The position numbers were made by a program, and so were the translations under genes. From Myxococcota bacterium (GTDB lineage: Bacteria > Myxococcota_A > UBA796 > CAJQPC01), in assembly GCA_023150845.1 (NCBI GenBank), contig JAKLKD010000036.1:1-36446 (forward strand): a DNA stretch of 36,446 bases, read 5' to 3'. The notes under the pieces were generated by a model. That model worked only from the letters and a program-made list of their open reading frames with translations. It ran no database searches and had not been told where the DNA came from. This document shows positions 9,289 to 13,176 of this stretch, one piece after another. Every line of letters starts with the position of its first letter. The stretch's first letter is position 1.

Positions 9289-9876
9289 TCAAGCGCGTCG
9301 CCCGCTCTCTCCTCGGGTCAACGCGCCGTTGATGAGGTGGGCGAGGCGCAGGGGCTCGGGGACCTTCCCGCGGTCGGTCACCTGGGCGAGGGCCCGGGCC
9401 GTCGCCGCCGGGGACTCCCCCACCACCTGAAAGACGAAGCCGCCCTCTTGGTGCACCACGCCCGCGCGCTCCAGGCGGGCGAGGCGGCCTTCAGCGTCGG
9501 GCAGCTTGGCCAAGGCCCGGCGCATGGCGGCGAGATCCGGCGGGCGGCGCATCACCGCGACGCAGGGGCGATCGAGGCGCTCAGCGAGGGCGGGAAGATC
9601 GATGACGTTGAGCCCCCCGACGGTGACGCCGTCGAGGAGCACGCCGTGGACCTGGGCGTGAAAGCGGCTGGACAAGAGCGCGCTGGCGATCACCTCGGCG
9701 CCGTCGTCGCCGTCCCGGGTGGCCCAGCCGAACACCATGCCGTCCAGGCGCACGCCGCGGCAGACGACCCCGCTCACGGGCACCCGGGCGCCAGGCGCGC
9801 GCTCGAAGGGCCCGTCGTCAAAGCCGACGAGGCGTAAAGAGAGCCCCCTGCGGGCGAGCTCGTCGAACGACTTCAC
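9289..9876 (-). CDS. DUF99 (UPF0215) family protein
   Basis: A 195-residue protein matching the DUF99 pattern: an N-terminal LVGFDDGPF, then VSGVVCRGVRLDGMVFGW, LLDGVTVGGLNVIDLPAL, PCVAVMRRPPD and a C-terminal helix. The family is best known from archaea, its biochemical role is not settled, and a nuclease-like fold has been suggested. The GTG start overlaps the plsX stop by four bases (GTGA), so it is translated with plsX. It occupies the place between plsX and acpP where fabH, fabD and fabG usually sit. A link with lipid synthesis is suggested only by position. Confidence 0.75.
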   Translation of the reverse strand: MKSFDELARRGLSLRLVGFDDGPFERAPGARVPVSGVVCRGVRLDGMVFGWATRDGDDGAEVIASALLSSRFHAQVHGVLLDGVTVGGLNVIDLPALAERLDRPCVAVMRRPPDLAAMRRALAKLPDAEGRLARLERAGVVHQEGGFVFQVVGESPAATARALAQVTDRGKVPEPLRLAHLINGALTRGESGRRA

Positions 9877-10733
9877 GCCTTGGGCTCAAAGGCCGCGCGC
9901 AGGTCGGTGAGCAGGCCGCTTGAGGCGACCCGATCGCCCAAGGCCACGGCGGCCCGGATGTCGTCGGGGGTGGCCCGGCCGTGGCCAATCACGACGATCC
10001 CCCGCACGCCGAGCAGGAGCGCGCCGCCGATGGGGCGCTGCCGGGGGCGCCGCCCCAGCCGCAACATCGCCTCGGCGGTCTTGAGCAGGACGTTGCCGAC
10101 GAAGCCGTCGCAGACGAGCACGTCACAGGCCCCGGCGAAGGCGTCATGGGGCTCGACGGGCCCCACGAAGCGGAGCGGCGCGGCGTCGAGGAGGGGCAAG
10201 GTCGCCTTCACCTGGGCGTTGCCTTTGCCGCGCTCCTCGCCGTTGGAGAGCAGGCCGATCCGCGGCGCGGCGACCCCCAAGGCGCAGCGCGCGTAGGCCT
10301 CGCCGAGCCGGGCGAAGGTGGCGAGCTGGTCCGGGCGGCAGTCGACGCTCGCGCCGAGATCGAGCACGACGAGCCCACCGCCATCCGCCCGGGGCACGGC
10401 GCTCACCAGGGCCGGGCGATGGACCCCCTCGAAGGTGCCGAGGACATGGACGGCGGCGGCCATGGCGGCGCCGGAGTGGCCACAGGTGACGAAGGCGCTC
10501 ACCTCGCCCCGGGCGAGGGCCTCGACGCCGAGGCGAATGGACGAGCGCGGCTTCTCCCGCAGCGGCGCGACGGCGCTGTCGTCCATCAACACGACCTCTG
10601 GGGCGTGGTGAACGACGTGGGGCGCGTCCCCCAGGAGCGGGCGCAGCAAGTCCTCGACCCCAAAGAGGGCCAGAGGCGCAACGACGCCCCGAGCGGCCGC
10701 CATCGGCGCGCTGGGGGCGTCATCACCACCCAT
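9873..10733 (-). CDS. plsX: Phosphate acyltransferase PlsX
   Basis: A protein of at least 286 residues that makes acyl-phosphate from acyl-ACP, the entry into phospholipid synthesis. Seen marks are MGGDDAP, the FVTCGHSGAAMAA segment, VVLDLGASVDC, LLSNGEERGKGN and CDGFVGNVLLKTAEA. The coordinate given uses the first standard start codon, ATG at 10733. PlsX proteins normally begin one strand earlier (x-VALDAMGGD), and that strand is encoded here just upstream, in frame, but no ATG, GTG or TTG precedes it. A CTG at 10772 is the only nearby candidate. The protein is shorter than most family members (about 330 residues). Confidence 0.9.
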   Translation of the reverse strand: MGGDDAPSAPMAAARGVVAPLALFGVEDLLRPLLGDAPHVVHHAPEVVLMDDSAVAPLREKPRSSIRLGVEALARGEVSAFVTCGHSGAAMAAAVHVLGTFEGVHRPALVSAVPRADGGGLVVLDLGASVDCRPDQLATFARLGEAYARCALGVAAPRIGLLSNGEERGKGNAQVKATLPLLDAAPLRFVGPVEPHDAFAGACDVLVCDGFVGNVLLKTAEAMLRLGRRPRQRPIGGALLLGVRGIVVIGHGRATPDDIRAAVALGDRVASSGLLTDLRAAFEPKA

Positions 10734-10777: not shown

Positions 10778-10963
10778 TCAGTCTTCGCGGATCTCGATGA
10801 CCTGACGGCCGCGGTACGAGCCGCAGGCCTCACAGACGCGGTGACGGAGCTTGAGCTCCGCACAGCTCGGGCAGGCCTCCACCGCCGCGGTGGCGACGAG
10901 GAAGTCATGGGCGCGGCGCATGTTCTTGCGCATGATCGAGGTACGCTTCTTCGGGACAGCCAC
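10778..10963 (-). CDS. rpmF: 50S ribosomal protein L32
   Basis: A 61-residue ribosomal protein with the expected N-terminus AVPKKRTSIMRKNMRRAH and a zinc ribbon (CPSC and CEAC). The GTG at 10963 is chosen because GGAGG lies five bases upstream and the family N-terminus starts there. The order yceD-rpmF-plsX is one of the most conserved in bacteria. Confidence 0.97.
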   Translation of the reverse strand: MAVPKKRTSIMRKNMRRAHDFLVATAAVEACPSCAELKLRHRVCEACGSYRGRQVIEIRED

Positions 10964-10979
10964 AACAGCCTCCGGATCG

Positions 10980-11504
10980 TCAGTTGTCCAGCTTGAGGTG
11001 CTTGAGCACCGCGAAGCGTGGATCGACAGGGTCTGGGTCTTGGGTTTGGGTCGCCTTCGCCGACGCGGGCCGGACGCACGCGGGCAGGGCGAACCCTTCG
11101 GCCTCACAGGTTAACCGCGTCGGTAGGGAGAGCGCAAAGTGCTCGCTCACCACCGCCGCGAGATCAACCGTTGAGCCGGTGTAGAAGCCGACGTCGAGAT
11201 CCTGCTCTTGGAGCTCACGCTCTTCGGGGGCCGCGTCGTCGAAGGGGACGTAGGACAGGTTGACCGGCCCGCCGAGGCGGAACGGGAGATCTTCGCTGCA
11301 GCGGTCGCAGGCGCGCGACAGCTCGGCGTGCAGCGCGCCGGTGACCTCGATGAGCTGCCCCTTTCGGTGCACCTCAAGCTCCCCGTCGATGCGCCGAACG
11401 ACACCCTCAAGCCCGACCTGGGCGGCCTGGATCACCCAGGGCTCCACGTCGTCGAAGGTGATGTTCAGCCCCTCGTCGGGGATCTTCTCGATGTTCAGCA
11501 GCAT
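10980..11504 (-). CDS. yceD: YceD family (DUF177) protein
   Basis: A 174-residue protein of the YceD/DUF177 family, linked to 23S rRNA metabolism and nearly always encoded upstream of rpmF. The core with the CDRC motif (SRACDRCSEDL) and a second Cys pair (LTCEAEGFALPAC) is visible. ATG at 11504 gives the family start MLLNIEKIPDEGL. No strong ribosome binding site is seen, and a TTG at 11567 is an unlikely alternative. The stop is 16 bases before rpmF. Confidence 0.9.
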   Translation of the reverse strand: MLLNIEKIPDEGLNITFDDVEPWVIQAAQVGLEGVVRRIDGELEVHRKGQLIEVTGALHAELSRACDRCSEDLPFRLGGPVNLSYVPFDDAAPEERELQEQDLDVGFYTGSTVDLAAVVSEHFALSLPTRLTCEAEGFALPACVRPASAKATQTQDPDPVDPRFAVLKHLKLDN

Positions 11505-11584: not shown

Positions 11585-12502
11585 CTAACGCCGTGAGCGC
11601 AGGCGCTCGGGCACGAGCTCGACCTCATCCCAAGGGCGCGGGTGCTCCCGCAGCTCCTTGAGGGTGGCGGCCCCAGCGGCCCAGAGCGCCTCCGGCGCGG
11701 CGTCGCGCACGTTGCCGAGGGGCCGGGCGCAGGACGACGCGAGGAGCGTGCCGTCGGAGAGCAGCTCCGCCCGGTACCCGCCGCCCACCCGCACCTTCTC
11801 CCCGGCGAGCCAGCGGCGCAGGTGATCCGGGGTGAGGTTGTCCCGACCGAGGGCCTCGACGGCCTCCAGGCCGCCCTTGGGGGGCTCCGCGCCGAAGGGC
11901 ACCGTGGCCAAGACGCCGTCGGCGCCCGCCTGGCGCGCCCAGCCCGCCACGGCCCCAGCCCCGCCGGTGTTGGCGTCGGTGAGGGGAACACAGACGTAGA
12001 GGCCCAGGGGGCGCTTGCGCCGGGCGCGGGCCTCGCGGAAGGCCTCAACCGTCGAGACGGCCTCGTCGAGGCGGGTGCCGACGGCGGCGCGGTGGCTGCC
12101 CTCGTCGATGCCGCCGACGAGCACGGTGACCGCGCTGAGCCCCCAGTCCACCATGGCCTCGGCGCCCTCTGACGAGATCGGCCCGCCGGTGACGACGTGG
12201 GTGGGGCACTCCAGGCGGTTGCCAAACCGCACCAAGGCCGAGAGCAGGCCGCTCTGGGCGGGCTCACCCCCGGCGATCGTGAGGCGCAGGGGCCCGAGCC
12301 AGCGCTCGAAGCGCACGATCGTGTCGCGCCACTCCTTCTCTTTGAGCGGCGCCCCCGTGGCCCGGAGGAGGTTGGGGCCGAGGTGGAGGTCGTTCAGCCG
12401 CAGCACGAGGCGCGTCGGCCGCGGGGTCACGCCCGGCAGGCGCGCCGAGGCGGCTCGCGCCGCCGAACGGGCTTGGATGAGGAGCTGCTCCAGGGACTTC
12501 AC
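11585..12502 (-). CDS. Radical-SAM/SPASM-like protein lacking the 4Fe-4S cysteines
   Basis: A 305-residue protein with the layout of a radical SAM enzyme: a first strand (RLVLRL, 31-36), the GGEP motif after strand two (LTIAGGEP, 74-81), a segment resembling the SxDG...H...G motif (LVGGIDEGSHRAAVG, 128-142), and a C-terminal SPASM-like CARPLGNVRDAAPEALW (258-274). The CxxxCxxC that binds the SAM-cleaving cluster should follow the first strand; here that stretch reads NDLHLGPNLLRA and has no cysteine. Only three cysteines exist (99, 171, 258). It therefore looks like a catalytically dead relative or one with new chemistry. GTG at 12502 is chosen because GGAGG lies five bases upstream. It precedes yceD in the same direction. 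Confidence 0.7.
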   Translation of the reverse strand: MKSLEQLLIQARSAARAASARLPGVTPRPTRLVLRLNDLHLGPNLLRATGAPLKEKEWRDTIVRFERWLGPLRLTIAGGEPAQSGLLSALVRFGNRLECPTHVVTGGPISSEGAEAMVDWGLSAVTVLVGGIDEGSHRAAVGTRLDEAVSTVEAFREARARRKRPLGLYVCVPLTDANTGGAGAVAGWARQAGADGVLATVPFGAEPPKGGLEAVEALGRDNLTPDHLRRWLAGEKVRVGGGYRAELLSDGTLLASSCARPLGNVRDAAPEALWAAGAATLKELREHPRPWDEVELVPERLRSRR

Positions 12503-12583
12503 GAGGGCCTCCAGCCGCGCGGGCGAGCGGGGGGCTGCTCGCCGCTGACAGGCTACCCGAGTCCGGGCCCGGGGGAAAGGCGC

Positions 12584-12613
12584 CGCGGGCCTCAACGACC
12601 GCCGAGGCCCGCG
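12584..12613. repeat. Perfect 10-base inverted repeat in a divergent intergenic region
   Basis: CGCGGGCCTC (12584-12593) and GAGGCCCGCG (12604-12613) enclose 10 bases. The repeat lies between two divergent genes, so it is not at a gene end. It could be a dimeric operator or an RNA stem in an untranslated leader; the sequence gives no further clue. Confidence 0.45.
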
Positions 12614-12654
12614 CCCTGGCCGCCCACAGCGCGCTTGGCTATGCTTGAGGGCCG

Positions 12655-13176
12655 ATGCAAACTCCCCTCTCCCGCCGCGATCTCCTCGGCCTCCTCGCCG
12701 GGGTCAGCCTCACCGCCGCCACGGCTTGCGCCGGGGACGACGCCCGCCTCCAGGCGGAGCGTTACTGCGCCGCGATGGTGGCGCCGCTCCGCAAGAACGC
12801 GGCCCTCGCCCAGGTGTTTTTGGAGTTCGCCGCCGCCGTGAAGCGCGCGCCGCTTCCCGAAGAAGATCTCGGGCGCCGCTTTGAGGAGGCGATCCTCCCC
12901 CCGGCGAAGCAGCTCGCCGCGGACTCCGCCGCCGTCGTCGCCCCAGCGGACCTCGCCGAGCCCCACGCCGCCCTCGCCTCGGCCTGGGCGGATCGTGCCG
13001 CGGCCTATGAGGCGATGTTTAAGGCCTGGTCGAGCGGTGATGAGGACGCCTTCGAGGTCGCCGCCGCCCGGCACAACAAGTCCAAGGACGCCGAGCACGA
13101 CGCGATCACGGCCCTGAACGCCAAGCTCGCCCCCTTCGGCCTGAAGCTCGATCACCTGCCCAACCAGACGGGCTGA
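12655..13176 (+). CDS. Tat-exported protein, possible lipoprotein, function unknown
   Basis: A 173-residue protein whose N-terminus (LSRRDLLGLLAGVSLTAATAC) has a twin-arginine motif followed by a hydrophobic stretch and a cysteine. The cysteine could be lipidated, though the lipobox (ATAC) is imperfect. The mature part is helical and rich in Ala and charged residues, with no recognised domain. ATG at 12655 lacks a good ribosome binding site but follows a TATGCT -10-like element by nine bases, so the leader may be very short. It precedes an ArsR regulator by 60 bases. Confidence 0.7.
   Translation: MQTPLSRRDLLGLLAGVSLTAATACAGDDARLQAERYCAAMVAPLRKNAALAQVFLEFAAAVKRAPLPEEDLGRRFEEAILPPAKQLAADSAAVVAPADLAEPHAALASAWADRAAAYEAMFKAWSSGDEDAFEVAAARHNKSKDAEHDAITALNAKLAPFGLKLDHLPNQTG

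Follow-up and report, generated by a model that had tools for sequence, protein, structure and literature searches.

We analysed a window of 36,446 nucleotides (contig JAKLKD010000036.1 of assembly GCA_023150845.1, from a Myxococcota bacterium), in which a pseudo-radical-SAM gene, here called pSAM, lies between a yceD-rpmF-plsX cluster and a lipoprotein-like gene. The features of this locus are the following:

9873..10733, minus strand: plsX of the yceD-rpmF cluster (PF02504)
10778..10963, minus strand: rpmF (ribosomal protein L32), start codon approximate (PF01783, E 3.6e-24)
10980..11504, minus strand: yceD, 80 bases downstream of pSAM (PF02620, E 1.7e-18)
11585..12502, minus strand: pSAM, 305 aa, GTG start, TAG stop (intact open reading frame, selection, predicted fold)
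11711..11731, minus strand: CARPLGN, residues 258-264 of pSAM, a twitch/SPASM-like segment in which the four auxiliary-cluster cysteines are missing (alignment)
12260..12271, minus strand: GGEP, residues 78-81 of pSAM, confined to the window's family (3 of the 31 members in the alignment)
12365..12394, minus strand: NDLHLGPNLL, residues 37-46 of pSAM, where the CxxxCxxC cluster loop is expected (alignment with intact relatives; none of 35 homologues has the motif)
12503..12654, no strand: intergenic region of 152 bp between the divergent pSAM and lipoprotein genes, presumed promoter region
12655..13176, plus strand: lipoprotein-like gene, 173 aa, with signal sequence and conserved lipobox Cys25, the most constant neighbour of pSAM (alignment, adjacency in 34 of 37 genomes)

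The 305-codon reading frame of pSAM contains no internal stop, GGAGG stands 5 bases ahead of its GTG codon, and its GC content by codon position (0.78/0.56/0.94) is like that of the genes around it in the window. The gene is present as a single copy in its own genome. Homologues turned up in 37 genomes, all of a single Myxococcota order, representing five of the six families sampled; the cysteine counts given below cover 35 distinct homologues, and the alignment and tree cover 31 members. A search of 379 genomes of the phylum yielded no pSAM homologue outside the order, only ordinary radical SAM proteins.

A gene heading for loss might be suspected from the piecemeal disappearance of its cofactor motifs, described below, and from the lack of pSAM in family f4 and in genomes G005 and G017, all of which still carry yceD and the lipoprotein gene. 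Such decay is extremely improbable given intact frames in all 35 members, invariant residues that span five families, and the dN/dS values of all pairs tested (0.11 between genus-mates and 0.10-0.29 for four other pairs, the values for pairs with genome G002 being rough since dS is above 1). pSAM is under purifying selection and is not decaying; the absence of decay agrees with an earlier note on this DNA, which had taken this view from the frame, the ribosome binding site and the codon use.

Radical SAM proteins form a very large enzyme superfamily, and a member without its three cluster cysteines performs no reductive SAM cleavage. The CxxxCxxC motif (or an accepted variant), which ligates the radical SAM [4Fe-4S] cluster and serves here as one membership test for this superfamily (PF04055), is absent from the window protein. 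The earlier note had described a radical SAM layout with the cysteine region replaced, and we recovered NDLHLGPNLL, GGEP and CARPLGN as quoted there, together with its GGIDxGSH segment, which reads GGIDEGSH (residues 130-137). NDLHLGPNLL aligns opposite TDRCFLPCLHCDIWK of intact radical SAM relatives; in place of this loop, most of the pSAM family has in common a shorter LR-L-(D/N)-D segment. The same state is present in homologues 93% and 61% identical to the window protein and taken from other assemblies, so that an assembly error is excluded; with three independent assemblies in accord, a single mutant is ruled out as well. An exact deletion of three cysteine codons (NDL-C-HLG-C-PN-C-LL) looks tempting, but we do not claim it because the wider alignment shows a loop of reduced length, LR-L-(D/N)-D-x-x-x-P, that is common to the members.

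Among the 35 distinct homologues, none contains CxxxCxxC. In the tree, all 31 aligned members are separated from the intact relatives by a fully supported branch, and the window's own family (f1) diverges first, provided that the root falls on the branch to the intact relatives. The simplest account of these sequences would be a loss of the radical-cluster cysteines in the common ancestor of the pSAM family. No cysteine-bearing ancestor was detected at the yceD locus in families f4, f3, f6 and f7-f9 or in the phylum at E 1e-15. The cysteine loss is thus conserved, and the close cysteine-bearing homologues that would have spoken against the earlier note were not found among the homologues collected. 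A protein built as a radical SAM protein, without the cluster site, is kept in one lineage of uncultured Myxococcota.

The AlphaFold2 model of the window protein, for which 21 family sequences were used, reached a pLDDT of 84.7 and a pTM of 0.86. Its best solved folds in a Foldseek comparison with the PDB were the radical SAM enzymes SkfB, SuiB, DesII, MoaA and viperin, and a relative that keeps the C-terminal cysteines was modelled with a pLDDT of 89.5 and gave largely the same matches. The predicted structure of the window protein is a radical SAM barrel; the fold suggested in the earlier note, to which an unrelated structure would have put an end, is borne out by the model. SkfB, SuiB, PqqE, MoaA and BlsE share the barrel and the C-terminal domain predicted for pSAM (Foldseek E values as low as 3.6e-10), but differ from it in that CxxxCxxC is missing from every pSAM member, and all auxiliary-cluster cysteines from the window protein as well.

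At the level of profiles the relationship is faint. The window protein has no match in Pfam even at E 10, and in NCBIfam it weakly matches PqqE (5.9e-5) and the haloarchaeal pseudo-SAM family TIGR04347 (0.007). Of 25 pSAM relatives, 15 match PqqE, 14 a radical SAM/SPASM maturase family and 6 PF04055 (best 5.7e-5), and the pSAM family profile finds the solved PqqE at 9.8e-7. By its NCBIfam name, TIGR04347 (pseudo-SAM/SPASM) is likewise a radical SAM/SPASM relative that lacks the function, and with this precedent the pseudo-SAM kind is already known. It is weakly matched by 6 of 25 pSAM members (best E 9.5e-5), the window protein lying far under its curated cut-off (15.6 versus 525 bits); as intact radical SAM proteins give better matches to this family, no special kinship between pSAM and TIGR04347 is shown.

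Intact relatives encoded in the same genomes (G000:C215, G011:C33, G054:C566) can be aligned with pSAM over most of the length, twitch cysteines included. Unlike pSAM they have CxxxCxxC together with GGEP, and they lie mostly beside a second radical SAM gene, away from the yceD locus. The nearest of them (L133, at G000:C215:5000-12500, and L128, L129 and L131) stand in tandem with this second gene, overlapping or abutting it.

The intact relatives carry twitch-type auxiliary-cluster cysteines (CxxG...GxxxxC...CxRxC), and 32 of the 35 pSAM homologues keep four C-terminal cysteines that match this auxiliary Fe-S (twitch) site; one of the 32, L080, was scored by eye, as it reads CS and not CP, with the four cysteines present. 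The three members without auxiliary cysteines are exactly family f1. In the window protein, Cys258 is two residues away from an auxiliary-cluster ligand position, and the C-terminus, called SPASM-like in the earlier note, is so as a fold but not in its cysteines, having none of those of the auxiliary cluster. Conversely, GGEP is kept in f1 alone, by the window protein and its two family members, and is lost in the other lineages. With f1 keeping GGEP without the auxiliary cysteines and the others showing the reverse, different lineages have thus shed different pieces of the cofactor apparatus. The result is a graded series, which runs from intact relatives in the same genomes through many members without the radical cluster and with a possible auxiliary site to one family with neither.

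Catalysis by the radical SAM barrel with a different cofactor, an option raised in the earlier note, or with a different substrate, for example with SAM held by GGEP without the radical cluster or with the auxiliary Fe-S site in the relatives, would fit the presence of GGEP in each of the three f1 members, the four auxiliary cysteines in 32 of 35 members and the common LR-L-(D/N)-D motif where the cluster loop was. It is nevertheless rather improbable: no alternative ligand set is conserved family-wide, with GGEP lost outside f1 and the auxiliary cysteines lost inside it, and it is difficult to argue for one chemistry of catalysis across the two halves. We regard as doubtful, and put forward as a speculation, a shedding of the cofactors in two steps, in which the ancestor would have dropped the radical cluster and retained the auxiliary Fe-S cluster to sense iron or redox state, in connection with the envelope lipoprotein and with the ribosome and lipid-synthesis genes, the window's family later dropping the auxiliary cluster to leave a cofactor-free protein. 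If true, a radical SAM fold would here serve in regulation or as an escort for export instead of as an enzyme. An amphipathic, membrane-binding N-terminal helix was also considered for pSAM and is unsupported: just 6 of the 25 members had a moment exceeding that of shuffled sequences (p<0.05).

In 29 of 37 genomes, pSAM stands directly before yceD on the same strand, with spacers mostly of 3-110 bases, followed by rpmF, plsX and fab genes. The order of the yceD-rpmF-plsX-fab cluster in the window is widely conserved (PMC5049393); compared with it, the pSAM gene ahead of the cluster is an addition confined to this Myxococcota order, as is the divergent lipoprotein gene, for which a small number of weaker matches exist in other parts of the phylum. 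In E. coli, yceD is co-transcribed with rpmF, and YceD is needed for normal accumulation of 23S rRNA (PMC5049393). Together with the placement of pSAM upstream of and co-directional with these genes, this would suit a non-catalytic adaptor of large-ribosomal-subunit (50S) assembly that acts with YceD and L32, as would the many invariant or nearly invariant arginines of pSAM (R92, R96, R159, R162, R190, R289), which could serve an anionic ligand. We consider such an adaptor unlikely, as pSAM of genus g9 is found on a contig other than that of yceD and still adjoins the lipoprotein gene, as three g4 genomes (G052, G062, G063) have pSAM reversed relative to yceD, pointing away from it and still divergent from and adjoining the lipoprotein gene, and as the order's family f4 carries yceD-rpmF but no pSAM. 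The position beside yceD-rpmF, to which the earlier note had drawn attention, is therefore the usual one, but the most constant partner is the lipoprotein gene, which adjoins pSAM in 34 of 37 genomes, typically in divergent orientation.

Some further observations concern the cluster itself. YceD is without the CxxxCxGxCxxCGxxLN motif throughout the order, whether pSAM is present or not, and YceD proteins of the neighbouring families f7-f9 keep it. A coupling of this zinc-motif loss to pSAM was rejected, since the loss is order-wide and includes genomes in which pSAM is absent. An Endo_dU family gene (PF01949, E 1.6e-47; window 9289-9876, minus strand) lies between plsX and acpP in the fatty-acid cluster. 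plsX is present twice in many genomes of the class; in the window genome, the plsX of the yceD-rpmF cluster matches PF02504 at 3.6e-60, more weakly than the copy at G000:C234:3006-3989 (1.4e-96).

Members of the lipoprotein family have approximately 165 residues, with C25 invariant in the alignment and a hydrophobic stretch ahead of it. By this N-terminal hydrophobic signal and invariant lipobox cysteine, the product of the gene at 12655-13176 is classed as a bacterial lipoprotein, with export and lipidation predicted. It has no confident match in Pfam, NCBIfam or the PDB. Weak matches to the NCBIfam family 'EMYY motif lipoprotein' were seen for 5 of 13 members (best 3.5e-5), a possible distant relative, and the window lipoprotein has a Tat-like SRRDLL ahead of the lipobox.

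Exceptions to the adjacency of the two genes include G020, in which the lipoprotein gene is on another contig and the pSAM contig ends, and G039, in which the contig begins 222 bases before pSAM. In genus g9, the lipoprotein gene has stayed beside pSAM rather than yceD, and the divergent arrangement has become co-directional: the lipoprotein stop and the pSAM start overlap in a 4-base ATGA in G050, and the gaps are about 15-50 bases in three other g9 genomes. An adjacency that survives a change of orientation speaks more strongly for a working link than a common position by itself would, even though it does not prove function. It names a testable partner, a lipoprotein family of no known function that adjoins pSAM through two rearrangements.

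At about even odds (a probability of roughly 0.5), we propose that pSAM is a non-catalytic binding protein of radical SAM fold partnered with the neighbouring lipoprotein, most plausibly with its precursor before export. The fold, the ancestral cysteine loss, the purifying selection and the genomic coupling to the lipoprotein gene were computed, and from them we infer the non-catalytic role, the direct binding and the precursor as client. pSAM would descend from a radical SAM/twitch (SPASM-like) enzyme that lost the radical SAM [4Fe-4S] cluster; with this cluster lost it could not make the 5'-deoxyadenosyl radical, and it is probably now a non-catalytic binding protein. It may act in the cytosol as an escort, chaperone or sensor, with the adjoining lipoprotein as main client or partner. 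SuiB, SkfB and similar radical SAM/SPASM maturases bind a peptide precursor, and by analogy pSAM might bind the lipoprotein precursor before export. As pSAM has no signal peptide and the lipoprotein is expected to be exported, the mature partners would be in different compartments, so that direct contact would have to take place before export, or the link would run via another protein. The auxiliary Fe-S site may persist in most relatives as a structural or redox element and appears lost in the window's family. Against a partnership with the lipoprotein stand 19 genomes of the order, most of them in family f4, that carry the lipoprotein gene but yielded no pSAM, so that the lipoprotein does not need pSAM, and G054, in which pSAM is present and the lipoprotein gene was not found.

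The literature searched, which covered few subscription journals, yielded nothing directly relevant on inactive or pseudo radical SAM proteins and no description of the pSAM family, its locus or its partner. Finally, three metagenome-assembled sequences titled Klebsiella pneumoniae (L088, L098 and L099; CAMAWH010000087.1, CAMAXZ010000033.1 and CAMBIK010000059.1) carry the pSAM locus of the Myxococcota order, and their species names therefore look wrong.
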